A stretch of DNA of 38,776 nt from Planctomycetota bacterium (lineage in GTDB: Bacteria; Planctomycetota; Planctomycetia; Pirellulales; Pirellulaceae), in contig JAGWWZ010000024.1 in the NCBI GenBank assembly GCA_018970165.1, forward strand, positions 1 to 38,776. The letters are read 5' to 3'. A program made the translations under genes and the position numbers. Positions within the stretch are counted from its first letter, which is position 1; each line of letters begins with the position of its first letter. This document shows positions 5,613 through 38,536 of this stretch, in pieces. Under the pieces are notes generated by a model. That model was not told where the DNA came from. It made no database searches and saw only the letters and a list, made by a program, of their open reading frames with translations.

Positions 5613-5624
5613 CTCGAGGTTCGG

Positions 5625-6761: not shown

Positions 6762-6824
6762 TGGGCTAGATGCCAGTGAGCACCTACCTACCTTACCTAC
6801 CCCTGCCTTCACTCAAGTCCCACC

Positions 6825-9875: not shown

Positions 9876-9884
9876 CGCCATCGG

Positions 9885-11318: not shown

Positions 11319-11328
11319 AGGCTGGTTC

Positions 11329-12459: not shown

Positions 12460-12479
12460 GGAGTGTTTCCCAATCGGCA

Positions 12480-15110
12480 ATGAGGTCCGAAGTGATCGTG
12501 AGGCATGACGAGGCTTTCCCCAAGACGATTTTCTATTGTAACGGAATCGCACGGTTTGCGAGTACATCGACTTGCACTCCGTTTACTGCACACTCGACGT
12601 TTATTGCACACTCGACTTGCTTGATATTGTCGATCTGCTTATTCGCGGCCTATGCTAGCAACTCGACTAATACTTCCTGGGGACAGGAATCTCCGAATCG
12701 GCCCTATGGAATGTCGGGGATTGCACAGTCACCCGATATTCGATGGATCGAATCTTTGATTGACGACGGTTTTTCAAAATTCGCACTCGATGCTTGTGAA
12801 AGTCGACTGAAACTTCATTCGCAGGATTCCGATCCCTACGCGCAGTGGTTGATGCTGGCGATGCATGCACAAACAGCGATGGAGCTAGAGACCTTTGACT
12901 TTTCAGGCGAGCCGAGGGGTTTGGATGCGATCCGCAAGGGGATCGAAGAACGAACGCAGAGCACCCGAGGAACTCCGCGCGAGTATTGGGTTCGATGGAA
13001 GGCGGGTTGGTGTCAATGGCTGATCCAGCAGCGAGCGCTCGGGAGTTACATGGCTGTCCCTACGCGCGAACCACTGAAGGAGTGGGTCATCGCCTCCATT
13101 CGTCAGTCACTCGATGCGGTGGAACAATTGCAGTTGGATACCCGCAAGCTAGCGACCGGATCGGGCAAATCCATCACCAACGATCAGAAACTGGATTTGC
13201 AGGGGCGATTGGCCTTGCTGCAAGCGGATTTGCTTTATCAAAGAGCGCAGTGTTATCCACCCATGAGCGATGATCGATCCGCAGCGGCGGCTGAGATGCT
13301 TCGTTCGTTGGATCAAGCTCTTGGAAAACTTCCTGCCGACTGGATTCATCGTCCTTCTTTGGCTATCGCCCGTATTCGCGGCCAGATTTTGCTTGGTCAA
13401 TATGACGATGCGATCTCCAGCGCGAACAAACTTTGGGAGAGCTTGCATGCGGAAAGCGATACGCGCGCTACATCGCTTCAATATGAAGGAGCCTTGGCCG
13501 TCGTAGGAGCCCGAGCTTCGCGACTCAAGGGTCAATCCGACGCGTTCCTCGCATGGATCGAGCGAGGTGGTGGGCCGATGGCGTCCCCTGAGCTGGCGAT
13601 GGAGCAATTCGCAGCCGATTTGGATCGAGGAGGCGATCAAGCCGCAGAGAAGGCACTGGAGTGGAAGCGAGCGGTTGGCAAACGGTTTGGTCCCTATTGG
13701 GAACAACGACTCGATGCCATGCTCGTTTCGAATAACTCTGCAACGCAGCGCAATAGCAAGGTGCCATCGTTGGAGATTCTGCGCATCGAAATCCGGCAAC
13801 TGCTCAACGCCAAACGCTTCGAAGAAGCGATCGAAAAACTGCGGCAGGCCGAAATTGCCGCCGCACAGTTGCAGGCTGAAGAAGAAGCGTTGGCATTCGG
13901 CATGCAAGTCGCAGCAGTCCACGACAGCCAAGGGCAACGAGATCAGGCTGCGAAGGCTTTCTTCGAAGCTGCTTTGCATTATCCCGGTCAGCCGAAAGCT
14001 GCCGCGGCATCATTGATGGGAGCTTGGCTGATCCGCCCAAACATCGACGCGAACGTCGAACCATCGTCGAAAAACCGTTCGCTCTATCGAGAACGATTGC
14101 TCGCTACGGCTCTGAAATGGCCAACGACCGATGCTGCGAAGCAGGCGGTGGATTGGTTCGAGCGGGATTGCCTTTCGCAAGACACGATTGCCCCGAACCT
14201 TCAACTCTGGACCGAACGAACTGCGGCAACGAAGAAAACATCCTCATCGATCGGCCGATATCTTCTTGGAATGTGCGTCAAGAACGATGCATGGGTCGAG
14301 CCCTTGAGCAAGCTGCATGTCGACTTGGATGAATCTTTGAAATCGCTTCGAGGATCCTTGGTCGATACTTACAGCGAAGTGGACCGCGACCGACTGCGAA
14401 CTTGGATTGCCACCACGGAATTCGATTTGCGCTGGTCGACCCTTGCGGTCGATGGGGATTCAAGCACTTGGCTTGGCAACCTGTCGCGCCTCGTTTCAGG
14501 CGGAACTTCGGGCACACCGATCACCGATGACATGCTGCGTGAATCGCTTTCAAATTGGCAAGACGATCCACTTGCGCGACTTGGGATTCTTTGGTTCGCT
14601 TGCGAGTCGAGAGCTTCCGCGATGCTCTCTCGGTCGACGGCCCCTTCGGAGCAGGAGTATCGACAATTCGATGCCTTGCAAAGAATCCTGAAGGGTGAAC
14701 GCGATTTGGATTCGGCATATCCCCTTGGCCCAGCTATCGAAGGAACACTAAGGCGATCCATGCGATTCTATGAGATGCTGGCTTCCGGAATCGGAGGAGA
14801 TTGGAGCGGCATTCTTAAGCAACTCGAACAGGAACGGGACGCGAATAAGAAATCTGCTTGGTGGCTGTATCGAAGCGCACGGGTACTGCAGTCGATCGAG
14901 CCCCAGCGCCAAGAAGCGATTCCATGGTATCGGCTGTTGGCAAGCGGTTTTCCCGCGGGGAGTGAAGCTTGGCTCGAAGCTCGGGCTCGAACCGCGCAGA
15001 CCCTGCGTTGGTCCGGCGACAGCAAGGGAGCCGATCAGCTGCGGGACCTCGTATTCGCAACCTATCCTGCAGCCGAGCCGAAATGGCGTACCCGTTTCGA
15101 AGCCAAATGA
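12480..15110 (+). CDS. Secreted TPR-like helical repeat protein
   Basis: An 876-residue protein whose start is uncertain. ATG 12480 leaves only 20 bp to the divergent kinase, and in-frame GTG codons at 12492 and 12498 are alternatives. A hydrophobic export segment (CLILSICLFAAYA) lies near residues 48-60, so the n-region is unusually long. The rest is helical, with TPR-like units (for example RFEEAIEKLRQAE near 442-454 and RDQAAKAFFEAALHYPGQ near 485-502). No catalytic motif is visible. It is probably a periplasmic scaffold. A perfect hairpin directly follows the stop. An 18-bp tandem duplication sits in the N-terminal coding region. Confidence 0.72.
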   Translation: MRSEVIVRHDEAFPKTIFYCNGIARFASTSTCTPFTAHSTFIAHSTCLILSICLFAAYASNSTNTSWGQESPNRPYGMSGIAQSPDIRWIESLIDDGFSKFALDACESRLKLHSQDSDPYAQWLMLAMHAQTAMELETFDFSGEPRGLDAIRKGIEERTQSTRGTPREYWVRWKAGWCQWLIQQRALGSYMAVPTREPLKEWVIASIRQSLDAVEQLQLDTRKLATGSGKSITNDQKLDLQGRLALLQADLLYQRAQCYPPMSDDRSAAAAEMLRSLDQALGKLPADWIHRPSLAIARIRGQILLGQYDDAISSANKLWESLHAESDTRATSLQYEGALAVVGARASRLKGQSDAFLAWIERGGGPMASPELAMEQFAADLDRGGDQAAEKALEWKRAVGKRFGPYWEQRLDAMLVSNNSATQRNSKVPSLEILRIEIRQLLNAKRFEEAIEKLRQAEIAAAQLQAEEEALAFGMQVAAVHDSQGQRDQAAKAFFEAALHYPGQPKAAAASLMGAWLIRPNIDANVEPSSKNRSLYRERLLATALKWPTTDAAKQAVDWFERDCLSQDTIAPNLQLWTERTAATKKTSSSIGRYLLGMCVKNDAWVEPLSKLHVDLDESLKSLRGSLVDTYSEVDRDRLRTWIATTEFDLRWSTLAVDGDSSTWLGNLSRLVSGGTSGTPITDDMLRESLSNWQDDPLARLGILWFACESRASAMLSRSTAPSEQEYRQFDALQRILKGERDLDSAYPLGPAIEGTLRRSMRFYEMLASGIGGDWSGILKQLEQERDANKKSAWWLYRSARVLQSIEPQRQEAIPWYRLLASGFPAGSEAWLEARARTAQTLRWSGDSKGADQLRDLVFATYPAAEPKWRTRFEAK
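12581..12616 (+). repeat. 18-bp tandem duplication in N-terminal coding region
   Basis: Two head-to-tail 18-bp units, 12581-12598 and 12599-12616, differ at one base (unit GTTTAYTGCACACTCGAC). They encode a 6-residue repeat (FTAHST, FIAHST) just before the hydrophobic export segment of the TPR-like protein. Confidence 0.85.
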
Positions 15111-21435: not shown

Positions 21436-21674
21436 TGCCGATATTCCTCAAATCACGACTGACCAGCGAGTATCCGATCGATCGACTGATACCCATAAGG
21501 CAAACCCGTTTCGCACTCGAGATTATACGGCATTCGGATTCTTCATCAAAACTTTGACGCTCCTACCCCTGTCTCCCTACCAAAAGCCACCCGCATTCGC
21601 GGTAAACTGGGAAAAATTTTCCGAACCTAGTTATCCCGCGTTCCGTCAACTTCTTTCCCGCAAGACCAATCACC

Positions 21675-22949
21675 ATGAACCGACCCATCCCCTTCGGCCT
21701 TGTCTGCACCCTGAGTTTCGCCTTTGCCGTTTTCGCTCCTTGGTCGAAAGTCTCGGCGTTTTTTCAAAGTTCCGACGCCAATGGCATCCCCGAGGCGGAT
21801 GGTTCTTTGCAATGGTGGAAGGGAAACTTGCACACCCACTCGCTGTGGAGCGATGGCAATGATTTTCCAGAGATGATCTCCGATTGGTATCGTCAGCGAG
21901 GGTACCACTTTCTTGCGATCTCCGACCATAACGTGTTGCAGGAAGGGTCGCGTTGGATGTCTCTCAAATCCATCCAGGTTCGCGGTGCCAAGGATGGGCT
22001 GGAAAAGTACCGTCAACGATTTGGAGTTAATTGGGTCGAGACGAGAGGCGATGCCAGCGAGTCGCTCGAGGTGCGATTGAAGCCCCTCGATGAGTATCGA
22101 TATCTTCTTGAGGAACGTGGCCGCTTCATCTTGATTCCTTCGGAGGAAATAACCGATCGGGCCGAAGGGAAGCCTGTTCACATGAATGCGACCAACTTGG
22201 CTGAGGTCATCAAGCCTTTGGGTGGCAAGACGGTTCGTGAAGCGATGGAAAACAATCTCCGGGCTGTGCTCGAACAAGAGAAGGCTCGCGGCCGCGAGAT
22301 CCTCATGCACCTGAATCATCCCAACTTCGGATACGGGATCACCTTTGAGGACTTGGCAGCTGTCATGGCTGAACGGTTCTTCGAGGTCTACAACGGTCAT
22401 CCCGGTGTCAATCATCGCGGAGACGATCAGAACCCAGGGGTCGAGCGCATGTGGGACTTGGCAAATCATCTTCGCGTCAACAAGCTTGGCGGAAGCATCT
22501 TGTTCGGTATCGGGACCGACGACAGCCATGAGTATTTTGGCAAGCCTGGGAGTCGACCTGGTCGCGGATGGGTCATGGTCCGCGCCCAATACTTGACCCC
22601 GGAGCATTTGATTCGAGCGATGAAAGCGGGAGACTTCTACGCATCCAGCGGCGTATCGCTGCGCGATGTTCAGTGGGATCCGGATCGTCGAAAACTTTCG
22701 ATCGCGATTCAAGAGGAACCAGGCGTCACCTACACCACTCAGTATCTGGTCACCACAGCCGACGCCGAATTGGATCAGATCGGTCGGATCGCACATTCGA
22801 CACAGGACCTCGAGTCCTCATACCGACTGGCTGATGGAGAAACGATTGTCCGCGCCGTGGTCACCAGCAACCTAGCTCCTGTCGATCCCATCTTCGACGA
22901 CCAAAAGCAACAGGCGTGGACTCAACCCTTCACGACAGTGATTCCCTAG
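21675..22949 (+). CDS. Secreted PHP-domain metal-dependent phosphoesterase-like protein
   Basis: A 424-residue protein with an export signal in the first 30 residues. The PHP domain shows the metal ligands in order: HTH at 53-55 (NLHTHSLWSDG), SDHN at 83-86, a later LNHPN, a YNGHPG and a final GTDDSH. PHP enzymes hydrolyse phosphoesters at a trinuclear metal centre (as in histidinol phosphatase or the polymerase III PHP domain). The secreted form suggests a periplasmic substrate, which is unknown. The C-terminal 90 residues are a beta-rich extension. The 239 bp upstream hold an A/T-rich near-palindrome (GGAAAAATTTTCC, near 21611) but no clear promoter. Confidence 0.82.
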   Translation: MNRPIPFGLVCTLSFAFAVFAPWSKVSAFFQSSDANGIPEADGSLQWWKGNLHTHSLWSDGNDFPEMISDWYRQRGYHFLAISDHNVLQEGSRWMSLKSIQVRGAKDGLEKYRQRFGVNWVETRGDASESLEVRLKPLDEYRYLLEERGRFILIPSEEITDRAEGKPVHMNATNLAEVIKPLGGKTVREAMENNLRAVLEQEKARGREILMHLNHPNFGYGITFEDLAAVMAERFFEVYNGHPGVNHRGDDQNPGVERMWDLANHLRVNKLGGSILFGIGTDDSHEYFGKPGSRPGRGWVMVRAQYLTPEHLIRAMKAGDFYASSGVSLRDVQWDPDRRKLSIAIQEEPGVTYTTQYLVTTADAELDQIGRIAHSTQDLESSYRLADGETIVRAVVTSNLAPVDPIFDDQKQQAWTQPFTTVIP

Positions 22950-23073: not shown

Positions 23074-24120
23074 ATGGGTGGTACCTCACGCGACGAATTC
23101 TTCAATTGGCAATCCAGCAGCCAACTTCTTTGGACAACTTCTTCTTCTGCGCCACGCCGTATCCTGGTAACGGGCGCAAGCGGCTTTGTCGGCGGACGGG
23201 TGGCCGATGCGCTCGAGTGGGCTGGTCACGATGTCGTTCGAATCGGTCGCCGGAAACTCGATCGTAGAGATTACATCTCCTGCGATCTCGCGGAGAATTG
23301 GAAAATCGAAAGATTAGGCGGGTGCGATGTTGTCATTCACGCCGCCGCACGCGCATCGCCGTGGGGACCGCGACAGTCGTTCCTTCGAGACAATGTTCAG
23401 GCAACTCAGAACCTACTCGAGTTCTGCGCGGCCACCGGGTTTCCTCGGATCGTGCATATATCTTCTTCGAGCGTTTACTATCGAGCCGAAGATCAATTCC
23501 ATATCTCCGAGTCGACTCCGCTCCCCGAAAAATTCGTCAACACTTATGCCGAGACGAAACGAGCGTCTGAGGAAATCATCGAGCAATACTCCGGTGCGTG
23601 GACTATCCTGCGTCCCCGCGCAGTTTTTGGGCCGGGTGACACGGTCCTTCTGCCGAGGATTCTGGAGGCGGCTCGCCGCGGCAAGCTTCCCTTCCTTTAC
23701 CGTCACGGCACACCGGTCGTGGGAGACCTGATCTACATCGACAATCTGGTCGATCAAATCGCTCAGGCCGCCGTATGCGAGAGAATTTCCGGTACGGTCA
23801 ACGTTTCCAACGGCGAACCGATCGTCGTCATGGACCTGATCCTCGGCGTTCTCAATCGCATGCAGATCCCACCTCCCTCGCGTCGAATCGCCGTGAACCG
23901 AGCGATGTTTGCGGCAACACTCTTGGAATTGGTCTATAAACTAGGGGGATTTCGTTCGGAGCCGCCGATCACCCGTTTCGGTGTGCATGTTTTCGCGTAT
24001 TCCAAAACATTTGACGTCACTCGCATGCTGCAGTTGTTCGGTTCCCCCAAGATCAGCCTTCAAGAAGGAATCGATCGCACAGTGCGCGAACTGTCTGCAA
24101 CACAAAGCGCGAGAGGCTAA
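23074..24120 (+). CDS. NAD(P)-dependent epimerase/dehydrogenase of extended SDR type, OleD-like
   Basis: A 348-residue extended short-chain dehydrogenase. The Rossmann loop GASGFVG is at 34-40. The catalytic Y158-x3-K162 is in NTYAETKRASEE, with serines at 131-133 (HISSSSVYY). The RPRAVFGPGD segment and the ending FAYSKTFDVTRMLQ.FG are typical of the 3-beta-HSD/OleD subgroup, in which OleD reduces 2-alkyl-3-keto acids in olefin synthesis. The N-terminal 27 residues are extra, but no later in-frame start exists. It is the first gene of a six-gene operon, and the next start follows after 1 bp. A 3-keto acyl reductase role is inferred from this resemblance and the neighbouring ketosynthase. Confidence 0.82.
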   Translation: MGGTSRDEFFNWQSSSQLLWTTSSSAPRRILVTGASGFVGGRVADALEWAGHDVVRIGRRKLDRRDYISCDLAENWKIERLGGCDVVIHAAARASPWGPRQSFLRDNVQATQNLLEFCAATGFPRIVHISSSSVYYRAEDQFHISESTPLPEKFVNTYAETKRASEEIIEQYSGAWTILRPRAVFGPGDTVLLPRILEAARRGKLPFLYRHGTPVVGDLIYIDNLVDQIAQAAVCERISGTVNVSNGEPIVVMDLILGVLNRMQIPPPSRRIAVNRAMFAATLLELVYKLGGFRSEPPITRFGVHVFAYSKTFDVTRMLQLFGSPKISLQEGIDRTVRELSATQSARG

Positions 24121-24121
24121 C

Positions 24122-25297
24122 ATGCGCGAGGCGCTCGGTTATTGCGGAGTCGCATCGGCGATCTTGTACTTGGTGATTCAATCGCTGAAGACAATTTTGG
24201 CAATCACCTTCTATCGATCCCGCACTGAATGTCGCAGACCCGTTCAGTCCCTTTCGGTCCTGACCCCGATCCTCAGCGGCGACCCGAATCTGGAGAACCA
24301 GCTGCGCGCCCACCTAAATGTCATTCCCTCCGGCTCCCCCATCTACTGGATCATTTACGAGCACGACGCGGAGGCGCTGCGAATCACCACCTTGCTCGCC
24401 CAAGATCATCAAAGAACACAGCATCAACGGCCGATCACAATCCTGCAGTCGCCAGAGATACCGTTCGATGCGAATCCCAAAGCGTACAAGATGCAGCTCG
24501 CCGTCCCGTTGCTCGATACACGCTACGTCTGCGTGCTCGATGACGATACGATCCCGAGTCTGGAAACCTTGGAGGCAGCGATCGGTGCGCTCGAGTCGGC
24601 CGATGTGTATACCGGCCTACCGTGTTACCAGAGGGGAACCGGTTTCTGGTCCGACATGATTTGCCATTTCGTAGCCAACAACGGCATTGCGACGTATCTG
24701 GCGACTCAATGGTTCGGCCCGCCGGTGTCGCTCAACGGTATGTTCTATGTGATGAAGACGGAGACGCTGCGCAGCTACGGCGGTTTCACTCCGATCTACC
24801 CGTTTCTTTGCGATGATTACGCGCTGGCGCGCGTTGTAAAAGAGCATGGAGGCGTGATCCATCAAAGCGTCCTGCCTCATTCCACCAGGACACATGCGGA
24901 GACGAGCCGTGATTACTTCCGTTTGTTTCATCGCTGGTTTGCCATGGCGATGGTATTGTTCCGAGATCAGCCGCTTGGTTTGAAGGGGATGATACTGGTG
25001 TTGCTCGGTCTGCCACCCTTTCTCCTTTGGTTGTCACTGCTCAGCCCGTTGGTAGGAGTATCGGGATGGATATTGCTTGCATCGGTTTTTGCGCTTCGAC
25101 ACCTGCTGATTCGTTTGCAGCACCGGTGCATCCTCCCGTTCCCGTACCCAATCCATGTCGTGAAGAGCCTGATTTCTGAGCTTCTTCAGCCACTGCATGT
25201 TCTGCACGCTTCCCTTTCCAATACGTTCTATTGGCGAAAGTGGCTGATTCGCACTCTGGCAAATGGCAAATTCGAATACGTGAGGGATCGTAGCTGA
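24122..25297 (+). CDS. Membrane glycosyltransferase, GT21/HpnI-like
   Basis: A 391-residue protein from ATG 24122, one base after the reductase stop. The earlier in-frame ATG at 23981 lies inside that gene and is rejected. It has an N-terminal membrane helix (about 9-30), a GT-A domain with DDD at 140-142 (VLDDDTIPS), and an acceptor-side NGMFYVMKTETLRSYGGF region (seen as SLNGMFYV). The CDDYALA motif is at 230-236 and an RW pair at 271-272 corresponds to the end of Q/RxxRW. Several C-terminal membrane segments follow (about 288-330). This order is that of ceramide glucosyltransferases and the hopanoid protein HpnI. It probably adds a sugar to a lipid at the inner membrane. The lipid and the sugar are unknown. 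Confidence 0.82.
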   Translation: MREALGYCGVASAILYLVIQSLKTILAITFYRSRTECRRPVQSLSVLTPILSGDPNLENQLRAHLNVIPSGSPIYWIIYEHDAEALRITTLLAQDHQRTQHQRPITILQSPEIPFDANPKAYKMQLAVPLLDTRYVCVLDDDTIPSLETLEAAIGALESADVYTGLPCYQRGTGFWSDMICHFVANNGIATYLATQWFGPPVSLNGMFYVMKTETLRSYGGFTPIYPFLCDDYALARVVKEHGGVIHQSVLPHSTRTHAETSRDYFRLFHRWFAMAMVLFRDQPLGLKGMILVLLGLPPFLLWLSLLSPLVGVSGWILLASVFALRHLLIRLQHRCILPFPYPIHVVKSLISELLQPLHVLHASLSNTFYWRKWLIRTLANGKFEYVRDRS

Positions 25298-25902
25298 TGT
25301 CGCCTTCCATCTGGCATCGAAGGCCGAGTCCCTTGCCCGATCGCGCGCGCCGCGTCTGCTTTGTGAGCGGCCTGAGCGATCCGACCAGTTCGGCGCTCTC
25401 TCAGGATCAGCTAACTCTGTTGCGATCGCTTCCGTTCGATGAATCCGAAATCATCGATCGCAATTTCCCCTTCACCTCCGATAGCCGCGAAACAGCTCGC
25501 GAAGTCTCAATGTTTTGGGCCAGTTTGATGAATGGTTGGCAGTATGTGAGACTCGGTTCACCCCGATATCGCGAAATCCTGGAGTTGCACTGGAAGAACC
25601 TGTTGCAACACACGGGCAAGTTGTATCTGGTATCGTTGAGCTGCGGTTTGGAATTCATTCGCGTGGGGATCGAGTCGTCTGCCGATGCGTCTCGCATTCA
25701 TGTCGTCGCACTCGGACCAGTCTGCAGACAGCTTCCAAATTGCAGTTTAACGATCATTCAAGGAGAACAGGACTGGATCTCGCGCCGATTCGTGCCCGAT
25801 GCGAATCATCGTGTTCCCGGCTTGGGACATATGGGTTACATGAATCATCCAAAAGTTCAGGAGATCTTATGCAGCGACTTGGGCAACAGCATTTCCGCCT
25901 AA
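25297..25902 (+). CDS. Small alpha/beta-hydrolase-like protein
   Basis: A 201-residue protein that overlaps the upstream stop as TGATG. I do not recognise a named family. The order of motifs fits a short alpha/beta hydrolase: nucleophile elbow SLSCG at 113-117 (S115, with Ser instead of the first Gly), an acid in GEQDW at 156-160 (D159), and a histidine in GLGHMG at 175-180 (H178). It has no lid-like insertion and no signal peptide. OleB of the olefin pathway is also an alpha/beta-fold enzyme but uses an aspartate nucleophile, which is not seen here. It could be a thioesterase or acyltransferase for the product of the next gene, whose start lies inside it. Confidence 0.6.
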   Translation: MSPSIWHRRPSPLPDRARRVCFVSGLSDPTSSALSQDQLTLLRSLPFDESEIIDRNFPFTSDSRETAREVSMFWASLMNGWQYVRLGSPRYREILELHWKNLLQHTGKLYLVSLSCGLEFIRVGIESSADASRIHVVALGPVCRQLPNCSLTIIQGEQDWISRRFVPDANHRVPGLGHMGYMNHPKVQEILCSDLGNSISA

Positions 25903-26867
25903 GCGGGACAGGAAGTTACCTGCCTCAGGCGATCGTCTTGGCAGAGGAAATGGATCGTCGCTTGAACAAGCCTCAAGGCTATGTGGCGAGCACAGGAGGT
26001 GTTCTCACTCGCCATGAATGTCGTCCGCCTGAGACGCTCACCTCCATGGCGATCGCTGCAGCCCGCAGAGCGATTGAAGCTGCTAATTTGCAATGGTCCG
26101 ATCTAGATCTGATTATCGATGCCAGCACCTGTCGTCATCAACCGATACCGTGCAACGCAGCACTGTTATCTCAGGCTCTTGGCACCGACGTGAAGGGGGT
26201 TCCAGCCTTCGATATTCAGAGTACTTGCCTAGGATTCATCGTCGCCATGCAAGTGGCCAATGGGCTGTTTGCGACCGGTAACTACGAACATATACTGGTC
26301 GTTTGCAGCGAATCGCTTCTTGCAGGAGTGAACTACTCGGAGCCGGAAAGCTCTGCATTGATGGGGGATGGTGCTGGCGCAGTCGTATTGTCCCGTTCCA
26401 AGTCGCGAAATACGTTTGCTTACTCGCACGAAACGCATGCCGAGCATTCCGCAATATGCGAAGTCCGCGGCGGTTCGCACAATCTTCCACCCTTTGAATA
26501 CGATCCCTCGAAGGAATGGCTGTATCGTTTTCATATGGATGGGCCGGAACTATTTCGTGTTGCGCGCAAGCTCCTCCCGCCGATGGTCGAGCGACTTCTC
26601 GAAGAAACGCAAGTCGATCGAAACTCGCTCCAGGTCATTCCGCATCAAGCGTCTCCTCGCGGTGTCGAAGCGATTCGTCGCTCTCTCGATGTGGGAACGG
26701 ATGCGTTTCACAATCGCACACATGAGATCGGCAACCTCGCAGCCGCAAGCATCCCTGTGATGCTCGATTGGTTTTGTCGTCGCCCGGAATACACGCATCC
26801 CACTCTAACGATGTTGCTAGGGACCTCGGCCGGCTACTCCCAAGCGGCGATGATTCTCGAGGTATAA
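25869..26867 (+). CDS. 3-oxoacyl-ACP synthase III family protein (FabH/OleA superfamily)
   Basis: A 332-residue thiolase-fold condensing enzyme starting at ATG 25869, 34 bp inside the preceding gene. The full KASIII triad is present: C120 in DIQSTCLGF, H259 in VIPHQASPRG and N289 in EIGNLAAAS. The glycine-rich ending LLGTSAGYSQAAMI is also typical. In the strand before the cysteine the sequence reads CRHQPIP, where OleA proteins, as I remember them, have a catalytic glutamate. That residue seems to be missing, so head-to-head condensation is not assured. It likely makes a 3-keto acyl product for the OleD-like reductase. Confidence 0.88.
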   Translation: MQRLGQQHFRLSGTGSYLPQAIVLAEEMDRRLNKPQGYVASTGGVLTRHECRPPETLTSMAIAAARRAIEAANLQWSDLDLIIDASTCRHQPIPCNAALLSQALGTDVKGVPAFDIQSTCLGFIVAMQVANGLFATGNYEHILVVCSESLLAGVNYSEPESSALMGDGAGAVVLSRSKSRNTFAYSHETHAEHSAICEVRGGSHNLPPFEYDPSKEWLYRFHMDGPELFRVARKLLPPMVERLLEETQVDRNSLQVIPHQASPRGVEAIRRSLDVGTDAFHNRTHEIGNLAAASIPVMLDWFCRRPEYTHPTLTMLLGTSAGYSQAAMILEV

Positions 26868-26873
26868 TCTTCT

Positions 26874-27716
26874 ATGACCGTGAGCGTACGTTTCTTCAAC
26901 AGCGGATATTGTCGCCAAGGCAATGCCATGTCGGGTGGCAAGGGCTGGAAATGGCGACGCTACTACGCTGTCTTTCTCTTGGTGTCGCATCCGGTGAAGG
27001 GAAGTTTTCTTGTCGACACCGGATACAGTCAGGACTTCTTCGACGCAACGCGATGGGGCATGGGGTTGCTTAGCCGTTGGATGCTACCTGCAACTCTGGA
27101 TCAGCATCATGATGCCGCTGGAGTATTGCGATCTTGTGGAGTTGACCCGGAAACCGTGCGATCGATCTTCATCACTCATTTCCATGCCGATCATATCAGC
27201 GGCCTGAAGCGATTTCCTAACGCTCGCTTCATTGCCCGTCGCAGCGCTTGGTCCCATCTGGCGTCGTTGTCTGCTTGGCGCAAGTCGCAGGAACTCTTTT
27301 TTCCAGCTCTGATGCCAATCGATTTCGAGCAACGAGCCGACTGGGTCGAAGAAACGGATTTCACCGTCTCTTCGTCGATTCTTCCTGGTTTTCGCTCATT
27401 CGATTTCTGGGGAGATGGATCGATGTTCTTGGTGGATCTTCCCGGTCATGCGATCGGGCAATACGGACTTTTCTTCCCGGGTGTTTCGCGGCCGATGCTG
27501 TATCTCGTCGATGCCGCATGGAATTTAGAAGCGATGCGTCTAGGAAGGATGATTCCCTCGGCCCTCATGTTCCTGCAACACGACGCGAAGGCTTATCGTG
27601 AAACATGGGCCAAGTTGCGATCGCTACAGGCAGAAGACAGGATCGATATGGTCGCCTGTCACTGCCGAGAGACCCAAGCTCGCGTCGAGAACCGCGGTGC
27701 CAACGATGTCGACTGA
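26874..27716 (+). CDS. MBL-fold metallo-hydrolase
   Basis: A 280-residue metallo-beta-lactamase-fold protein. The dinuclear metal motif HFHADH is at 102-107. An early D48 lies in FLVDTG. A second set of ligands is likely H in DLPGHAIGQYG and D in LYLVDAAWN, followed by the C-terminal ACHCRE histidine. The layout resembles quorum-quenching lactonases and related small-molecule hydrolases rather than true beta-lactamases. It has no signal peptide. It begins 6 bp after the ketosynthase stop and its end overlaps the next start by 11 bp. The likely substrate is the lipid intermediate of this operon (a thioester or lactone), by context only. Confidence 0.85.
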   Translation: MTVSVRFFNSGYCRQGNAMSGGKGWKWRRYYAVFLLVSHPVKGSFLVDTGYSQDFFDATRWGMGLLSRWMLPATLDQHHDAAGVLRSCGVDPETVRSIFITHFHADHISGLKRFPNARFIARRSAWSHLASLSAWRKSQELFFPALMPIDFEQRADWVEETDFTVSSSILPGFRSFDFWGDGSMFLVDLPGHAIGQYGLFFPGVSRPMLYLVDAAWNLEAMRLGRMIPSALMFLQHDAKAYRETWAKLRSLQAEDRIDMVACHCRETQARVENRGANDVD

Positions 27717-28977
27717 ACCACCGATGTCCATCGACCTGATCGCACCTCCCTTTCCTGGCCATCTATTTCCACTGTTGGATCTAGGCCAAGGATTGCGCGA
27801 TCGTGGATTTCGTTCCATCCGCGTGCTGACAACGGCGCGACGCAAGTCAGCCGTCGAAGCATGTTCCTTGGAGTTTGTCGAATTGCTCGCAGGTGCGGAC
27901 CCCTTCATCGACGCGATCGGAAACACCGAGAAACGTGTCGGCTCCCATCCATTTCGTCTTCTCTCGCAGTTCCGTATGAACATGTCCCTGATGGATCGTT
28001 TGCGCGAGGAACTCAAGACCCTATGGCAGGAGCATAGACCGGATGTCGCGATCGTCGACTTCACGGTGCCGTTGGCTGGCATCTTGGCACAGCAACTGGG
28101 AATCCCTTGGTGGACCTGCTGCCCGACTCCCTGTGCGATCGAGACGCGAACCTCGACTCCATCTTATTTAGGAGGTTGGCAGCCTCGATCGGATCTCTAT
28201 GGTCGGATGCGTGATCGCATTGGACGCGGAGTGATTCGAACGTTTAAGAGGACAGTGGGGTTACTGTTCCAAAAACCGTTTCGACGCTGGGGGATCGATG
28301 GTGTTTACCGCGACGATGGGAGCGAGGTCGCGTATTCACCCGAGTGGATCATGGGATGCGGCATCCCTGAATTCGAATTCGATCGCGACTGGCCTAGGGC
28401 ATTCGAGTTCATCGGCCCGCTTACCAGTGGCCCTCCCATCCCGTTCCAACCTCCGGAATTCGAACCGGACCGGCAGCACATTTTAGTTTCGCTCGGCACC
28501 CATATCCCTTGGGCGAAGAAAGCCCTTCGCAAGGTGATCCACGACGTCGCACAGGCACTGCCGTACCTACGGTTTCATGTCTCGGGCGGAAACCCAGGGG
28601 GTGAGAATCGTGAAGCAGTCGGCAATATCCAATTTGTCGATTACTTCCCGTACAGTGCATTCCTTCCGAACTACTCGGGAGCGATCGTTCACGGCGGAAC
28701 CGGATTGGTGTACAGTTGCCTTCGCTCGGGCGTCCCGATGCTCGTGGCTCCGCAGGACTTCGATCAATTCGATCATGCAGCCCGCATCGTCCATCGCGGT
28801 TTTGGGTTGTCGTGTTCCCTGCGCGAGCCGCCACTCAAGATCGCGAATAAACTGGAAAGTATTCTCTCTGACACTAGGATGCGAGAAACGGTTCAGGCCA
28901 TGCAGGCTCGCATGTTAGACAAGAATCCTTACGAAAAGGTGGCCGATCGGCTACGCAGCCAGTTCTTCGAAGCATAA
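27706..28977 (+). CDS. GT1 (MGT-type) glycosyltransferase
   Basis: A 423-residue glycosyltransferase from ATG 27706, overlapping the upstream stop by 11 bp; ATG 27724 is an alternative. The GT-B N-lobe begins with the classic PPFPGHLFPLLDLGQGL. The C-lobe nucleotide-sugar site is clear as VHGGTGLVYSCLRSGVPMLVAP followed by DQFDHAARI (HGG..T and DQ signature). Enzymes of this family add sugars from UDP- or dTDP-donors to small hydrophobic acceptors. It closes the six-gene operon, so it probably glycosylates the operon product. Its 3' end overlaps the convergent cupin gene by 27 bp. Confidence 0.87.
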   Translation: MSTEPPMSIDLIAPPFPGHLFPLLDLGQGLRDRGFRSIRVLTTARRKSAVEACSLEFVELLAGADPFIDAIGNTEKRVGSHPFRLLSQFRMNMSLMDRLREELKTLWQEHRPDVAIVDFTVPLAGILAQQLGIPWWTCCPTPCAIETRTSTPSYLGGWQPRSDLYGRMRDRIGRGVIRTFKRTVGLLFQKPFRRWGIDGVYRDDGSEVAYSPEWIMGCGIPEFEFDRDWPRAFEFIGPLTSGPPIPFQPPEFEPDRQHILVSLGTHIPWAKKALRKVIHDVAQALPYLRFHVSGGNPGGENREAVGNIQFVDYFPYSAFLPNYSGAIVHGGTGLVYSCLRSGVPMLVAPQDFDQFDHAARIVHRGFGLSCSLREPPLKIANKLESILSDTRMRETVQAMQARMLDKNPYEKVADRLRSQFFEA

Positions 28978-31874: not shown

Positions 31875-34460
31875 TCAGAGCCGCGGATCGATCGGTTCGC
31901 TTTCCATAGCCAGAACTGCAAACACACACTCGTGGACACGGCGCAACGGTTCGCGCCGGACGAAACGCTCGAGAGACTCGACTCCCAGCGCGAACTCGCG
32001 CAGTGCCAAAGCCCGCTTGGCTCCCAGTCGGCGTGAGCGCAGACGTTTCAAATGTTCCGGCTTGGTGTATTCGGGCCCATAGATGATCCGCAAATACTCC
32101 GCCCCCCGAACCTTGATGGCTGGTTGCAACAAACCATGTGGCCCTTCGGCGATAAACGATAATGGCTTGACCACCATTCCTTCGCCACCCGAGCCAGTGA
32201 GTGCAGTCCACCACTCGGTTGCCTCCTGTTCACTCGCCGGGCTCGATAGATCGACCAGCTTCCACGGTGTCGCGAAGAGCACTGGATCCACTCCGTCGGC
32301 CAAACGCGACAAGGTCTGCATATGCCAAGTGTGATCGCGATCGAGGTGGACTTTGCCTTCGCTAGCGAGCAGATGAAATGGAGCGAGCCGCAGATCATCA
32401 ACGCCGACAACATTCCAGCAGTAACGTTGATAGGCTTGGATGTAGCGCTGCACGAGTTGATGTCGCTCGATCGCATCGGTCAAGATTGGCTCGATGGTGG
32501 AGATTCGCTCGCGAGTCTTTTTGAGAGCAGCGACGGTCGCTTCGAGACCGGCCGTGCCAGCGACTCCCACGGCAGCATACTGATCGCGGATCAGTGCTTG
32601 CGCCTTGGCAGACCATGGCATCAATTCGCAATCCAAGCAGATCCAATCCGTGGCGAGTTCCTGCCACAGACCCACACGTTCGATCGCATCGCGAAGCCGT
32701 GCGAGCAACGACTGCTCCATGCCGCTATCGTCAAAGAATGGACGACCGGTGCGGGTAGTCACGATACCAAGGTTATTGTTCCCGGTGATCCCGAAACGTG
32801 TTGAAGGAACCCGTTCATCGCGACAAACGATCACCACCGCTCGCGAACCCATATGCTTCTCTTCGCAGATGACCTGCGAAATGCCACCGGCGCGATAGTA
32901 CTCGAACGCTTCGCGCGGCTGCTCCAGGTACGGTCCATCGCTGGCTGTTTCGCATGGTGACATGGTCGGTGGCAAATAGATCAGCCAACGTGGATCGGCC
33001 GCGAATCGGCTCATGATCTCGAGCGCTGCGGCAGCATTCTCGGTCCGGACGGTGATGTTTCGCATCAGTCGCGTTTCGATGTGGCGTTTTCCTGAAACAT
33101 CTTCCAGATCGAGGACGCCATCGTATTCCTGCTGCAACGATAATGGATGGGGACCATCCTTCAGGAACGGTTTTCGCGGTTCCGCATAGGTCGCCCGCGC
33201 GTTGACGGAAACAAACTCACGCTCCGGCCATCGCAGCGCCGTCAGTTTGCCACCAAAGACACAACCGGTATCGATGCAGATCGTATTGTTGAACCATTCC
33301 GGACGAGGGACAGGCGTATGTCCGTAGATGACAGATGCTTTTCCTCGATAATCTGCGGCCCAGTTGTATCGAACCGGCAATCCGAACTCATCGGTCTCGC
33401 CTGTTGTCTCGCCGTAAAGCGCGAACTCGCGGACAGCGCCCGAACCTCGCCCCTGCATCGATTCCTTCATCCCCGCATGAGCCACCACCAGCTTGCCGTT
33501 GTCCATGACGTAATGACTGACCAAATCGTCGATGAATTTCCTGACAGCCTCCCTGAATTCATCCGGCTCCCGTCCAAGTTGTTCCAGCGATTCTGCGAGT
33601 CCATGTTTGATCTGAACATTCTTGCCCGAGAGTGCTCGCATCAGCTTGATATCATGATTGCCGGGAACACAGAGGGCCTGTCCAGATGCAACCAAGTTCA
33701 TCACGAGGCGGAGGACCGCGGGTGTCTTGGGACCGCGGTCGACGAGGTCGCCGAGAAAGACCAGTTTTCGTGGGATGCCGTCCTGAAGGAGTGGTTCCGC
33801 ATCGCATGCTCCTTCAGGTTCACCCGGAATCGAGGTGATTCGCCAGTGGAGTTGCTGTAGGAGTTCGATGAGTTCATCGTAGCAACCATGCACATCGCCG
33901 ATGATATCGAACGGCCCATGCTCATGCTTGAGATTATTCCAGAGCCGTTGTCGCACCAAGGTCGCATTGGAGCATTCCTCGGGGCTGCGAAGAGTAAAGA
34001 CATGTCGAAACCCTTCGCGGAACAGACCTCGCAGTTCTCGCTGCATGGCTCTCCGTTGATTGCGAACGACGTGCGGACCGAAATCGCGATCGGGTCGCGT
34101 GGAGTTTCGATCGTGACAAACTTTCTCGGGGGTATCGACGACAATTGCAACGGGGAGACAGTGATGTTCGCGGGCGAGCTGCACCAGTGGTTGACGGTCC
34201 TCGGCCCGGACGTTGGTCGCATCGATGACGGTCAGCAAGCCTCGCGCCAGGCGTTTGCGAGCCAAGTAGTGCAGGACTTCAAATGCATCGCCCGTCGCTT
34301 CCTGGTTGTTCTCATCATTGGAGACCCAGCCTCGGAACGTGTCCGATGAGAGAATCTCGTTGGGTGCGAATAGACGACGGGCAAGTGTACTCTTTCCGGA
34401 CCCTGAGGCACCGATGAGAACGACCAGCGATAGCTCGGGAACGATAATTTCAGGAGTCAC
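31875..34460 (-). CDS. pnkp: Polynucleotide kinase-phosphatase-ligase (bacterial RNA repair)
   Basis: This enzyme heals and, together with Hen1, seals broken RNA ends. I start it at GTG 34460 (861 residues), which overlaps the hen1 stop by 11 bp. The ATG at 34610 lies far inside hen1. The kinase domain has P-loop GASGSGKST at 17-25. The metallophosphatase has D189 and H191 (GDVHG), D238 (GDLVDRG), N268-H269 (GNHD), H328, H381 and D397, with spacing close to that of the Clostridium thermocellum enzyme. The ligase/adenylyltransferase has K535 in EEKHMGSRA and EGMVVKP near the end. All three catalytic modules look intact. Confidence 0.96.
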   Translation of the reverse strand: MTPEIIVPELSLVVLIGASGSGKSTLARRLFAPNEILSSDTFRGWVSNDENNQEATGDAFEVLHYLARKRLARGLLTVIDATNVRAEDRQPLVQLAREHHCLPVAIVVDTPEKVCHDRNSTRPDRDFGPHVVRNQRRAMQRELRGLFREGFRHVFTLRSPEECSNATLVRQRLWNNLKHEHGPFDIIGDVHGCYDELIELLQQLHWRITSIPGEPEGACDAEPLLQDGIPRKLVFLGDLVDRGPKTPAVLRLVMNLVASGQALCVPGNHDIKLMRALSGKNVQIKHGLAESLEQLGREPDEFREAVRKFIDDLVSHYVMDNGKLVVAHAGMKESMQGRGSGAVREFALYGETTGETDEFGLPVRYNWAADYRGKASVIYGHTPVPRPEWFNNTICIDTGCVFGGKLTALRWPEREFVSVNARATYAEPRKPFLKDGPHPLSLQQEYDGVLDLEDVSGKRHIETRLMRNITVRTENAAAALEIMSRFAADPRWLIYLPPTMSPCETASDGPYLEQPREAFEYYRAGGISQVICEEKHMGSRAVVIVCRDERVPSTRFGITGNNNLGIVTTRTGRPFFDDSGMEQSLLARLRDAIERVGLWQELATDWICLDCELMPWSAKAQALIRDQYAAVGVAGTAGLEATVAALKKTRERISTIEPILTDAIERHQLVQRYIQAYQRYCWNVVGVDDLRLAPFHLLASEGKVHLDRDHTWHMQTLSRLADGVDPVLFATPWKLVDLSSPASEQEATEWWTALTGSGGEGMVVKPLSFIAEGPHGLLQPAIKVRGAEYLRIIYGPEYTKPEHLKRLRSRRLGAKRALALREFALGVESLERFVRREPLRRVHECVFAVLAMESEPIDPRL

Positions 34461-35865
34461 GAACGAATACTCCCATTTGTGTTGGGCTGCCGACGTCGCG
34501 GCCGTCGGATGTGGTTCCCAATTCGCCGATGTTCCGAAATTCGCATGTATATCCAAACCGGGAGCAGATGCTGTTGGCCCAAGCTTGAAACTGCTCGCGT
34601 GTCCACTCAAATCGGTGGTCTTTGTGCCGCATCGAGCCTGCCGTGAGCGATTCCCACATCGCGTTGTATTCGCTGTTGGGAGTAGAGACGATGACCAGTT
34701 CCGGCTTCATACTCCAGAATACGACTTTCTCCATCGCCTCGAGTCGCGGCTGGTCCATATGCTCAATGACTTCGCAGAGGACCGCCGCATCGACACCGTC
34801 CATGCGCTGATCGCGATACATCAGGGAACCATGGAGCAGTTCCACTCGTTGTTGCATGCGCGGTGGAAGGCGATCCAATCGAAGACGATCCGCAGCCATC
34901 TCTAGGCTGCGATGGGATACATCCATGCCGATGATCTTTTCGAGGTTGGGTTGTTTGAGAAGCTCGCGCAGCAGTTTGCCTTCACCACAACCGAGGTCGA
35001 CAACTTTACGTGCCCCATGAGTTTGAAGCACAGACAGGATTTCGTGGTGACGTTGCTGATGCAGACTGAGTTTGTTTTCAGTTGCTTCCTCGCGAGGATC
35101 ATCCGGGCTATCCGAATCGATCGCGATGGGGCTTTCGCCATCCTGTTCGCGCAGTTGCTTGATCGCGTCATCGGCGAGGGTGCGGCGGTACTTTAAATAG
35201 CGATTGGCGATCAGTTCCCGCTCCGGGTGCTGGGCCAGCCACCCTTCGCCGTGTCGCATCAGTTTCGCGACCTCGTCATCGCCGACGTAGTAATGTTTTT
35301 CGTTGTCGAGTACCGGGATCAACACATACAGGTGGCTCAAGAGATCGCTCAGTGTTTTCGTAGCGGCCAGTTCGATACCGAAGAGGGAGGGTTTATCGCT
35401 CGGCTCCCCAGTAGTGTTCGATGAATGCACCGTCACAGATACGCGATATCCCAGGGGCTCGAACAATCGATGAAGCAGTTCCTCGCCGCTTGCGCATGGT
35501 AGAGATGGAATACGAACTTCGAGAGGGATGGCAGTAGAAACCAATGCGGGGTGATCCTTGCAATTACCTGCGAGAGCCGTGCCGTAGACCTGGGCGATGG
35601 CAACCGCCAGCATCGACGAGGCGACATAGGGGCGATCATTGACGTACTGGTCGAGCGTTCGTTCACCTCGTTTGCCTCGTACAAGTCCGATGGGGTCGAC
35701 ATCGAGCATGAGGCATGCTGTGCATCGTTCGTTATCGGAATCGGGATAGAAGACATGAGCCTTGCCGAAGGCCAAATCAAACGACTGCACCCGATCGGGA
35801 TGTTTATGGAGGAGGTACCCTATGTCCGAAGGAGGATGATGTGTGGTGGAAATCGAGAGAAGCAT
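34450..35865 (-). CDS. hen1: 3'-terminal RNA ribose 2'-O-methyltransferase Hen1
   Basis: A 471-residue protein. Bacterial Hen1 methylates the 2'-OH at the break during RNA repair, so that the healed RNA resists renewed cutting. Its N-terminal domain activates Pnkp ligation. The N-terminal part opens with the family signature ending GYLLHKHPDRVQSFDL. The methyltransferase domain has the SAM loop DLGCGEGKLL near 290-299. The metal-binding set is E365, E368, H369 (CEVIEHM) and H417 (DHRFEW), as expected for Hen1 enzymes. The start ATG 35865 is fixed by the conserved N-terminus; no good ribosome site is seen. It is the first gene of the two-gene repair operon. Confidence 0.96.
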   Translation of the reverse strand: MLLSISTTHHPPSDIGYLLHKHPDRVQSFDLAFGKAHVFYPDSDNERCTACLMLDVDPIGLVRGKRGERTLDQYVNDRPYVASSMLAVAIAQVYGTALAGNCKDHPALVSTAIPLEVRIPSLPCASGEELLHRLFEPLGYRVSVTVHSSNTTGEPSDKPSLFGIELAATKTLSDLLSHLYVLIPVLDNEKHYYVGDDEVAKLMRHGEGWLAQHPERELIANRYLKYRRTLADDAIKQLREQDGESPIAIDSDSPDDPREEATENKLSLHQQRHHEILSVLQTHGARKVVDLGCGEGKLLRELLKQPNLEKIIGMDVSHRSLEMAADRLRLDRLPPRMQQRVELLHGSLMYRDQRMDGVDAAVLCEVIEHMDQPRLEAMEKVVFWSMKPELVIVSTPNSEYNAMWESLTAGSMRHKDHRFEWTREQFQAWANSICSRFGYTCEFRNIGELGTTSDGRDVGSPTQMGVFVRDS

Positions 35866-36637: not shown

Positions 36638-38536
36638 GTGCTCGCAAACGAATCTTCGCCGCGAAGCCCTAAGGCTCGCCCTATTTCAGGAACTCACATT
36701 CCCGCGTTCTGCTTTGGGACGGTTCACGAATTGGCCCACTATGCAGCATACATTGTGGCGGGATTGGTGCGGGAACGAGCCGCACTCGGACAAAAGACGG
36801 TGATCGGATTGCCAGCCGGTTCCACCCCGCTGTCGACCCTGCGAGAGCTGATTCGACTCCATCGGGACGAAGGACTCGACCTGTCGAATGTTGTCCTGTT
36901 TCTGCTCGATGAGTACTACGGCTTGCCTCCAGGAAGCCCCCAGTCGCACCGCACGTGGCTGCATGAGCAACTCGTCCAACATGTCAATATTCCGCCCGAA
37001 CAGGTTCATTGCATGGATGGGAATGTACATGCGAGCGATGTCGATCTCCATTGCCGACGATTCGACGAAGCCATTCAACAAGAAGGGGGCTTCGATCTGG
37101 TTCTGCTGGGGATCGGGATGAATGGGCATATCGGATTCAACGAACCCTTCTCCGCCCGACGCAGTCGCACTCGATTGTGCACCCTGGATCCGATCACTCG
37201 CCGAGGTGTCGCAAGCGACTTTTTCGGAGAGGAGAATGTCCCGACGCAGGCGCTCACGGTCGGCCTCAACGCAATCCTATCCGCACGCCGTATCCTGCTC
37301 ATGGCGATCGGTGAACACAAGGCCAAGATCATCGTCGAAGCGCTCGAGGGTGCGATCACAGAACGGGTCCCCGCATCGTTTCTTCAAGAGCACGGCGATG
37401 TCCGAACCCTTCTCGATACACCTGCAGCATCGTTGCTCAAGGGATACTCCACACCGTGGCGACTTCGCAACGTTGAATGGAACGATGACCTGATCAAGCG
37501 AGCAGTGCTATGGCTGTGCAGCCAGACGGGCAAGTCGTTGTTGAAACTCGATGCAGATGATTTTCGCGCGCACGATCTGCATCAATTGCTCCGTCACCAC
37601 GGTCCTCCCGAACGATTGTCGCAAGCCGTCTTCCAGTGGATGCTCAACACCATCGACTACCATCCAGCAGGAAAAGAGTCGAAACGGGTCCTCTGTTTCA
37701 GTCCCCACCCTGACGATGATGTTATCAGCATGGGTGGAACGCTCATTCGTTTGATCAACGATCAACACGATGTGCACATCGCATATATGACCAGCGGCAA
37801 CATTGCAGTCTTCGACCACGATGCTCGCATGGTCGCCGATCTGGTCTCGGAATACAACCGTATCTTTGGAATCGAGACCGAGCGATCATCGGCGCTCGCG
37901 CAGGAAATCCGATCCTCCATTCAAAACAAACGCCCTGGACAACCCGACACGCAATCTGTCCTGAATATCAAAGGATTGATTCGAAAGAACGAAGCCCGCG
38001 CCGGCGCCATCGCGATCGGTTGCAAAGAGAGCAACCTCCACTTCCTCGATCTTCCCTTCTATCGCACCGGGACCATCGCCAAGAATCCTGTCGGGGCCGA
38101 CGATATCGCTATCCTCGATGAACTCCTACGTCGAGTAATGCCTGACCAAATTTACGTTGCAGGGGACTTGGCCGATCCGCACGGCACCCATCGCGTTTGC
38201 GCAGAAGCTATCTTCAGCGTCCTGCTCCAATGGAAATCTCGCGGGGAAGCTATCCCCGACGTATTGTTGTATCGAGGCGCCTGGCAGGAATATCCGCTCC
38301 ACGAAATCGAAATCGCCGTCCCCTTGAGCCCCAGCGAGATCGCTCTCAAACGACAAGCTATCTTCATGCACGAGAGCCAGAAGGACAAAGCTCTCTTCCC
38401 AGGAAGCGATCCTCGGGAATTCTGGCAGCGTGCAGAAGATCGCAATCGCGGTACCGCAGACAGTTACAATTGCATCGGACTTCCCGAGTTCTTCGCTCTC
38501 GAAGCGTTCACTCGTTGGAAAGGGAACCCGATCTAA
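36638..38536 (+). CDS. Glucosamine-6-phosphate deaminase-like / PIG-L deacetylase fusion
   Basis: A 632-residue two-domain enzyme starting at GTG 36638. The N-terminal part (about 20-285) is NagB-like: LLDEYYGL with D91-E92, and GIGMNGHIGFNEP with H164. The C-terminal part (from about 345) is a PIG-L/LmbE deacetylase with its zinc motif SPHPDDDVISMGGTL, and later DPHGTHR. NagB turns GlcN6P into fructose-6-phosphate and ammonia; PIG-L enzymes remove N-acetyl groups from GlcNAc conjugates. One polypeptide could therefore deacetylate and deaminate amino-sugar compounds, similar to the Bacteroides protein BT_0258. I see no transporter or hydrolase partner nearby. The substrate is inferred. Confidence 0.9.
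   Translation: MLANESSPRSPKARPISGTHIPAFCFGTVHELAHYAAYIVAGLVRERAALGQKTVIGLPAGSTPLSTLRELIRLHRDEGLDLSNVVLFLLDEYYGLPPGSPQSHRTWLHEQLVQHVNIPPEQVHCMDGNVHASDVDLHCRRFDEAIQQEGGFDLVLLGIGMNGHIGFNEPFSARRSRTRLCTLDPITRRGVASDFFGEENVPTQALTVGLNAILSARRILLMAIGEHKAKIIVEALEGAITERVPASFLQEHGDVRTLLDTPAASLLKGYSTPWRLRNVEWNDDLIKRAVLWLCSQTGKSLLKLDADDFRAHDLHQLLRHHGPPERLSQAVFQWMLNTIDYHPAGKESKRVLCFSPHPDDDVISMGGTLIRLINDQHDVHIAYMTSGNIAVFDHDARMVADLVSEYNRIFGIETERSSALAQEIRSSIQNKRPGQPDTQSVLNIKGLIRKNEARAGAIAIGCKESNLHFLDLPFYRTGTIAKNPVGADDIAILDELLRRVMPDQIYVAGDLADPHGTHRVCAEAIFSVLLQWKSRGEAIPDVLLYRGAWQEYPLHEIEIAVPLSPSEIALKRQAIFMHESQKDKALFPGSDPREFWQRAEDRNRGTADSYNCIGLPEFFALEAFTRWKGNPI

Follow-up and report, generated by a model that had tools for sequence, protein, structure and literature searches.

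A conserved six-gene KASIII-based operon with two glycosyltransferase genes in planctomycetes and its relation to a wider ketosynthase-reductase-hydrolase gene family

We analysed a stretch of 38,776 nt from a Planctomycetota bacterium of the Pirellulaceae (GCA_018970165.1, contig JAGWWZ010000024.1), referred to below as the window, and in particular six open reading frames (ORFs) on its + strand at positions 23074-28977. An earlier reading made from the sequence alone, here called the original prediction, had described these genes as a rewired Ole system without OleC that forms a glycosylated acyl product. All six ORFs were found at these places and encode the following proteins:

23074..24120, + strand: extended short-chain dehydrogenase/reductase (SDR), an OleD-like reductase, with GxxGxxG, Ser and YxxxK in the sequence (PF01370)
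24122..25297, + strand: membrane glycosyltransferase of family GT21 (PF13506, motif residues)
25297..25902, + strand: minimal alpha/beta hydrolase (ABH) of 201 aa with Ser115-Asp159-His178 (model fold, aligned residues)
25869..26867, + strand: KASIII-type ketosynthase (KS) of the PRK07204-like group with C120-H259-N289 (ACP_syn_III, KS tree)
26874..27716, + strand: metallo-beta-lactamase (MBL)-fold hydrolase with the predicted shape of N-acyl homoserine lactone (AHL) lactonases and 4-pyridoxolactonase (Lactamase_B, metal ligands, model)
27706..28977, + strand: glycosyltransferase of family GT1, MGT-like (EryCIII-like/MGT match, motifs)

With ATG start codons at 24122 (GT21), 25869 (KS) and 27706 (GT1), the genes follow each other with a gap of 1 bp, overlaps of 1 and 34 bp, a gap of 6 bp and an overlap of 11 bp. 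The GT21 reading frame is open from a GTG at position 23981, and the ATG at 24122 agrees with the 1-bp gap. The layout given by the original prediction was thus reproduced exactly from the ORF coordinates, and its family assignments for the SDR, GT21, KS, MBL and GT1 proteins hold by Pfam and NCBIfam, the NCBIfam scores of these five proteins all lying under the curated cut-offs. The operon is confirmed as real, correctly placed and conserved. It is a KASIII-based biosynthetic operon of a recognisable kind, from a gene family for which we found no description in our searches of openly licensed PMC papers.

The six families are conserved together in planctomycetes, a point on which the original prediction depended. 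The complete order SDR-GT21-ABH-KS-MBL-GT1 is present in seven genomes, i.e., in the window and in six other planctomycetes (G449, G426, G538, SZAS-6 with locus L060, MAG-38 with L061, and G744 with L119), and locus L063 carries five of the operon genes up to its contig end. Besides the window genome, 295 genomes of the order were covered; five of them, all belonging to the same family, encode close KS relatives (46-51% identity, E < 1e-90), and three of these five (G449, G426, G538) have the complete six-gene order. Searching named GTDB contigs with the KS alignment brought up 37 loci, among them L060 and L061 as two further complete operons; a scan of genome contigs with a single sequence led to no confirmed match. 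Some loci stand for the same contigs (L031 and L062, L032 and L059, L033 and L058), and L063 and L099 appear identical. L033 starts with the KS gene at a contig edge and continues as KS-MBL-GT1. When ORFs of at least 150 aa in the flanks were compared, nothing beside the operon in the window matched the flanks of the six other complete operons at E 1e-10, and the flanks of the window, G538, L060 and L061 had no such match with one another; G449 and G426 have flanks in common, plus one flank protein in common with G744. The recurring complete order, the unshared flanks and the occurrence of the ABH gene always within the operon (see below) indicate more than chance linkage.

The catalytic triad C120/H259/N289 of the KS, described as intact by the original prediction, is invariant in all 50 aligned KS rows. 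The best NCBIfam model for the window KS is PRK07204 with 269 bits, below the cut-off of 402; among four other KS proteins encoded beside SDR and MBL genes, the one from Pontibacillus passes this cut-off (445), and those from Escherichia coli (333), Paraburkholderia (346) and the planctomycete locus L035 (238) stay below it. Phylogenetic trees were built from chosen KS rows rather than all loci (50 rows in the first tree, 49 in the second), the second omitting L056 and L054 as long branches that are both present in the first. In the tree of 49 rows, a branch with 100/100 support parts 36 KS of SDR/MBL loci from 13 KS without such neighbours, including the housekeeping FabH of the window genome (L055). 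Within this group of 13, identity as FabH is established for L055 (by model) and L046 (by annotation), and the other 11 are grouped here simply as KS without an SDR or MBL match in the sequence stretch covered. The 11 rows of the window KS clade are themselves united with 100/100 support. The window KS therefore does not group with housekeeping FabH, and a housekeeping FabH role was also rejected by its PRK09352/FabH score of 209.5 bits, below the cut-off of 249. The FabH of this genome is a separate gene (L055, 391 bits), its third KS.

OleA identity was rejected as well. The OleA sequence pattern, given in passages of PMC7158056 as EPxx[AS]x(14,18)DxxNACL, is absent from the window KS and matched by only one of the 50 KS rows, namely L056, another KS of the window genome. 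In the column of the pattern Glu, the window KS has I93, and the window clade has I in 10 of its 11 rows and V in the remaining one. With PRK09258, a model which we take to cover OleA, the window KS reaches 88.9 bits and L056 420 bits (cut-off 285). L056 lies on contig C55, is very distant from the window KS and has as its best PDB matches 3fk5 and 3row (E ~1e-50), entries named 3-oxoacyl synthase III which we presume to be OleA structures. The window KS has 40 PDB matches at E 1e-10, and these include no chain from the 3fk5/3row group. Its match to the ketosynthase 4v2p (E 4.1e-41) is marginally better than that to the FabH-named 4ryb (6.8e-41), and the matches listed further contain CorB and the PQS biosynthetic enzyme 3h76. 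Judged by its sequence, the window KS is not an OleA.

The top NCBIfam match of the SDR is OleD with 172.7 bits (OleD models 162.9-172.7), which agrees with its original designation as OleD-like, though far under the OleD cut-off of 580. The score for the sugar epimerase HpnA was 84.8 bits and for galE 51 bits. By family models the SDR therefore does not group with sugar-nucleotide epimerases, and this identity was rejected. A PDB sequence search gave as best matches sterol-4-alpha-carboxylate 3-dehydrogenase, MoeE5 and epimerase-type enzymes, with no OleD-named chain among the matches listed. In the SDR tree, which omits L033 (no match) and L032, L042 and L090 (aligned stretch crossed a stop), the nine window-clade rows form one group with an SH-aLRT support of 100.

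In the MBL protein, the metal ligands H102, H104, D106, H107, H192, D213 and H263 are invariant in 10 of 10 rows. Its structural model (pLDDT 92) is nearest in Foldseek to AHL lactonases and 4-pyridoxolactonase (9khq_B, TM 0.77, E 7.8e-18). It thus shares fold and metal-ligand residues with AHL lactonases of the AttM/AiiA kind, and its nearest NCBIfam model is AttM lactonase (68 bits, below the equivalog cut-off of 390). In the MBL tree, from which L066 was omitted (aligned stretch crossed a stop), the window-type rows need two changes, and 10 of the 11 form a supported set (98). A PqsE-like thioesterase as the closest fold was rejected, PqsE not being named among the 50 Foldseek matches listed. 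As PqsE is an MBL-fold thioesterase that hydrolyses a beta-keto acyl-CoA (according to passages of PMC9241726), the window MBL may still have a thioesterase role. Of the two functions originally proposed for this protein, that of a lactonase agrees with the model.

Both glycosyltransferases that the original prediction regarded as additions are present in all seven complete operons. The GT21 protein matches PF13506 with 79.2 bits (cut-off 21.7); its residues D187-D189, D278-D279 and H317-R318-W319 are invariant in 4 of 4 rows, and D187-D189, D278-D279 and R318-W319 in 7 of 7 rows when two sequences from locus L117 are included. Enzymes of this family act at membranes on lipid acceptors. The domain and motifs are shared with HpnI and GT21 enzymes of the ceramide and hopanoid type, and identity with the hopanoid glycosyltransferase HpnI was rejected at 44 bits with TIGR03472 (cut-off 310). 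A clear squalene-hopene cyclase was not found in the genome, which has ten weak matches to the hopene-cyclase domain (best 69 bits). In the GT1 protein, the motifs HxGxG and PQDxDQFDxxAR are kept in 5 of 5 rows.

The ABH protein has no Pfam or NCBIfam match at E 0.01, and a PDB sequence search was fruitless (best E 0.93). Its AlphaFold2 model (pLDDT 81) has an alpha/beta-hydrolase fold, in agreement with the original description, and gave 15 Foldseek matches at E ≤ 0.001, the best being minimal lipases (6nkc, E 1.5e-5; Bacillus subtilis lipase 1i6w, TM 0.54, E 4.6e-5). The predicted fold is clear and the likeness to minimal lipases modest. All 10 aligned rows have Ser115 and Asp159, and 9 of them have His178, L117 being the deviating one. 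Within the family, the ABH was found in 6 of 241 genomes, every time inside a window-type operon; since the profile was built from four of these six genomes, G592 and G744 are the independent ones. A separate profile search found it in 2 of 392 genomes of the phylum, with G107 itself in the model.

The combination of a KS of this group with OleD-like SDR and lactonase-fold MBL neighbours occurs in planctomycetes and also in an Opitutaceae metagenome-assembled genome (MAG), Proteobacteria, Bacillota and Fusobacterium. The neighbourhood counts below cover 9 kb around the KS and include matches of ≥ 45 bits to the queries used. Of 45 loci outside the window clade, 42 carry a TIGR02304-type adenylating enzyme and/or an ATP-grasp protein, and all 30 remaining loci of the GTDB scan (L065-L094) are ordered KS-SDR-MBL-TIGR02304, 20 of them from Janthinobacterium and therefore not independent. 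Eight plasmid matches were chosen from 49; seven have KS, SDR and MBL together with an 'F390 synthetase-related protein' (in one case 'CoF synthetase'), two of these with an ATP-grasp gene between KS and SDR, and the eighth is a housekeeping fabH. In E. coli, the adenylating protein reaches 755 bits with TIGR02304 (cut-off 252), and the four core genes lie between narI and purU in the two records viewed and are present in 672 of 5426 complete genomes. The E. coli loci L041 and L057 have a seven-gene cluster KS-SDR-MBL-F390-PAP2-sterol desaturase family-acyl-CoA desaturase, and strains ABU 83972 and LF82 are among those with its first four genes.

Among planctomycetes, L034, L035 and L038 combine the core with ATP-grasp and GNAT genes, L121 has TIGR02304, ATP-grasp and GNAT, and L117, L118 and L120 have none of these. 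No F390 match lies within 9 kb of the KS in L034, L035, L038, L064, L117, L118 and L120. Of the 392 genomes of the phylum, 11 reach E 1e-20 with the MBL profile; a KS and/or SDR adjoins each of the five strong places (E ≤ 2.9e-74), and at eight weaker ones neither lies within 1.5 kb. The Opitutaceae locus L064 has a window-type KS, SDR and MBL with ATP-grasp, GNAT and Rieske genes in place of the glycosyltransferases, and this gene set bridges the window form and the wider family form; L064 is a single MAG contig whose taxon label could be a binning error.

Compared with the family as represented in E. coli, Janthinobacterium, Mesorhizobium, Paracoccus and Pontibacillus, the window has the same KS group and the same kinds of SDR and MBL, lacks TIGR02304, ATP-grasp and GNAT, and instead adds GT21, the tiny ABH and GT1. 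Most other loci thus contain an ATP-dependent enzyme that could activate an acid, and in the window operon the sugar-adding enzymes stand in its place. The E. coli TIGR02304 protein had no match in the window genome at E 1e-3 in a search run without a positive control, and a DVU_1553-family ligase is present on contig C195 (L053, 73.7 bits, cut-off 300). Neither the KS-SDR-MBL operon family nor the E. coli cluster was found described in our searches of openly licensed PMC papers, where the passages of PMC2649909, PMC5467263 and PMC9823363 that mention F390 synthetase do so in other settings. The closer parent of the window operon is the KS-SDR-MBL family and not Ole.

More than one KS lineage is accompanied by the glycosylating module. 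Locus L117, from another planctomycete family (G107, 2274-13461), contains SDR, MBL, KS, two GT21-type genes, GT1 and a relative of the ABH (hhalign probability 90.7, E 1.3e-6) in a different order, and a FabG-like SDR in addition; the L117 KS groups with L004 (100/99) outside the window clade. In Fusobacterium vincentii (L124, 7973-14916), on a 2.1-Mb record labelled as a plasmid, the order is FabG-like SDR-GT21-ABH-SDR-MBL-F390-KS, and the KS groups with Pontibacillus (100/87). This cluster shares GT21, ABH, OleD-like SDR, MBL and KS with the window and differs by a TIGR02304-like enzyme (38% to the E. coli one), the extra FabG-like SDR and no GT1 match in the stretch. In the plasmid collection of 72,556 records, the window ABH (E limit 0.1) and the window GT21 (E limit 1e-10) both matched this locus and no other. 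In Ponticaulis and its relatives (L074, L075, L085), too, a GT1 gene lies behind the core, the Ponticaulis protein being Rgt-like (128.8 bits, cut-off 800). The recurrence of GT21 and ABH beside other KS lineages (L117, L124) makes a chance linkage unlikely. That separate searches led to such loci is our strongest evidence of joint function.

With gene content and order, conservation, the KS and SDR clades, catalytic residues and predicted folds in hand, we favour, at about an even chance, the reading that the six genes are one biosynthetic operon, a glycosylating variant of the uncharacterised KS-SDR-MBL family with a glycolipid or another glycosylated acyl compound as product. We infer its substrates, order of steps, sugars and product from the steps of related enzymes, including those of GT21 enzymes on membrane lipids. 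The KS would join an acyl thioester to malonyl or a second acyl thioester to give a beta-keto acyl product, and the OleD-like SDR would reduce the ketone to a hydroxyl. Hydrolysis of a thioester or lactone by the lactonase-fold MBL would release a hydroxy acid, the membrane GT21 and then the GT1 would place sugars onto the hydroxyl, and the small ABH might transfer or trim an acyl group. The product would be a membrane glycolipid or a glycosylated acyl natural product. The rhamnolipid genes RhlA-RhlB-RhlC likewise provide an alpha/beta-hydrolase, a GT1 and a GT2-type enzyme acting on 3-hydroxyacyl groups and differ in having no KS or MBL. The scheme draws on established steps of the Ole pathway (passages of PMC7158056) and of PqsE (passages of PMC9241726). 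The original proposal of condensation, reduction and glycosylation is plausible in outline, but it had the wrong pedigree in Ole.

Several points weigh against the favoured reading. The operon is rare, with KS relatives in only 5 of 295 genomes of its order. L064 lacks the glycosyltransferases, so glycosylation is not obligatory for the window KS clade. In L032 (3131-6991), a divergent SDR lies beside KS-MBL, followed by genes for a GDP-mannose dehydratase, a GT4 and a sugar transferase on the other strand, and no GT21, ABH or GT1 match was found in its 7-kb contig. The lactonase-like look of the MBL model agrees less with a role as a simple thioesterase. In the alignment, the distant L117 ABH has no catalytic His, and the KS could use a non-carbon nucleophile.

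A broader reading, which we hold tentatively and would not expect to be right in full, takes KS-SDR-MBL as the core of a widespread, modular and undescribed pathway that occurs in at least five phyla and makes an acyl-derived scaffold, either a hydroxy acid or a lactone, with exchangeable tailoring enzymes. The window operon would be its glycolipid version and would make a new class of membrane glycolipid. As tailoring sets, E. coli and Janthinobacterium would have an adenylase and desaturases, several alphaproteobacteria an adenylase with GNAT, Rieske and ATP-grasp, and planctomycetes GT21, the mini-hydrolase and GT1.

Alternatively, the KS, SDR and MBL might make a small diffusible molecule, a signal or an antibiotic of the pyrone, quinolone or butyrolactone-like kind, that is glycosylated for export or self-protection. 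The PDB matches of the KS to 4v2p, CorB and 3h76 suit such a product, as do the shape of the MBL, which is that of quorum-quenching lactonases, the MGT-like GT1 and the Rgt-like GT1 of Ponticaulis. However, GT21 enzymes work at membranes with lipids as acceptors, and in E. coli and Janthinobacterium the gene partners of the acyl-CoA desaturase and sterol desaturase families suggest lipids; we regard a signal or antibiotic as unlikely.

We consider it quite unlikely that the operon encodes an Ole-type pathway, in which head-to-head condensation would give a 2-alkyl-3-hydroxy acid or beta-lactone that is then glycosylated, with OleC possibly supplied from elsewhere in the genome. OleABCD and the window operon are alike in a thiolase-fold condensing enzyme, an OleD-like reductase and hydrolases, with an analogous course of condensation, reduction and release. 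They differ in that the window KS is not OleA, no OleC is encoded in the operon, two glycosyltransferases are added, and the hydrolases are the MBL and a Ser-type mini-hydrolase resembling minimal lipases, with no OleB shown. The absence of OleC noted by the original prediction holds for the six genes, but an OleC-like protein is encoded elsewhere in the genome (L051 on contig C118; 613 bits with PRK09274, cut-off 478; 556 with the olefin beta-lactone synthetase model, cut-off 900). This protein, the OleD models as best matches of the SDR and the lactonase-like MBL model would fit an Ole-type pathway, and passages of PMC7064751 describe an OleA-glycosyltransferase-OleC-P450-OleD region in A. 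atraurantiacus. On the other hand, the KS fails the OleA pattern, the OleA-like L056 is a separate and very distant gene, and at E 1e-5 neither the window nor any of 13 window-type or GT21/ABH loci matches the OleC-like protein. PMC7064751 also reports p-nitrophenyl-ester hydrolysis for OleA and not for FabH. From the idea of a rewired Ole system, the OleD-like SDR thus stands, but the KS is not OleA and the KS-SDR-MBL family is the closer parent. The OleA-like L056 and the OleC-like L051 are on different contigs of the window genome (C55 and C118), and an Ole pathway may exist there apart from the window operon.

An improbable alternative is that the KS acts as an acyltransferase and forms an ester on a sugar or lipid provided by the two glycosyltransferases, the product being an acylated glycoside. 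CerJ/ChlB-like families form C-O bonds, and the KS stands beside two glycosyltransferases in all seven complete operons. Yet its invariant C-H-N triad is typical of condensing enzymes, the OleD-like reductase would be left without an obvious beta-keto substrate, and the same core occurs without matching glycosyltransferases in most loci inspected. That the genes are unrelated and simply lie next to each other, with the KS as a spare FabH, has nothing in its favour and is next to impossible given the order conserved in seven genomes, the separate housekeeping FabH and the 100/100 split of the KS clade.

What looked like an isolated, odd operon now belongs to a conserved enzyme system, of which E. 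coli also has a four-gene form. The comparison defines the smallest core and several exchangeable modules for tailoring. Tractable organisms, for instance laboratory E. coli or Janthinobacterium, can therefore be used to look for the product, and planctomycetes then for the glycosylating branch.

The neighbours of the operon are unrelated to it by family, with IlvD, DUF2007 and ORFs without a match upstream and DUF72, PQQ and an RNA-repair pair downstream. A scan for promoters and terminators was uninformative (5 found versus 3.8 in shuffled sequences, and 8 versus 6.4). The RNA-repair pair, at 31875-35865 on the - strand, consists of Pnkp (kinase-phosphatase-ligase) and Hen1. At 21627-22949, two long ORFs without a Pfam match (389 aa on the - strand, 424 aa on the + strand) overlap on opposite strands, and at 36638-38536 one protein combines a glucosamine-6-phosphate isomerase domain with a PIG-L deacetylase domain.

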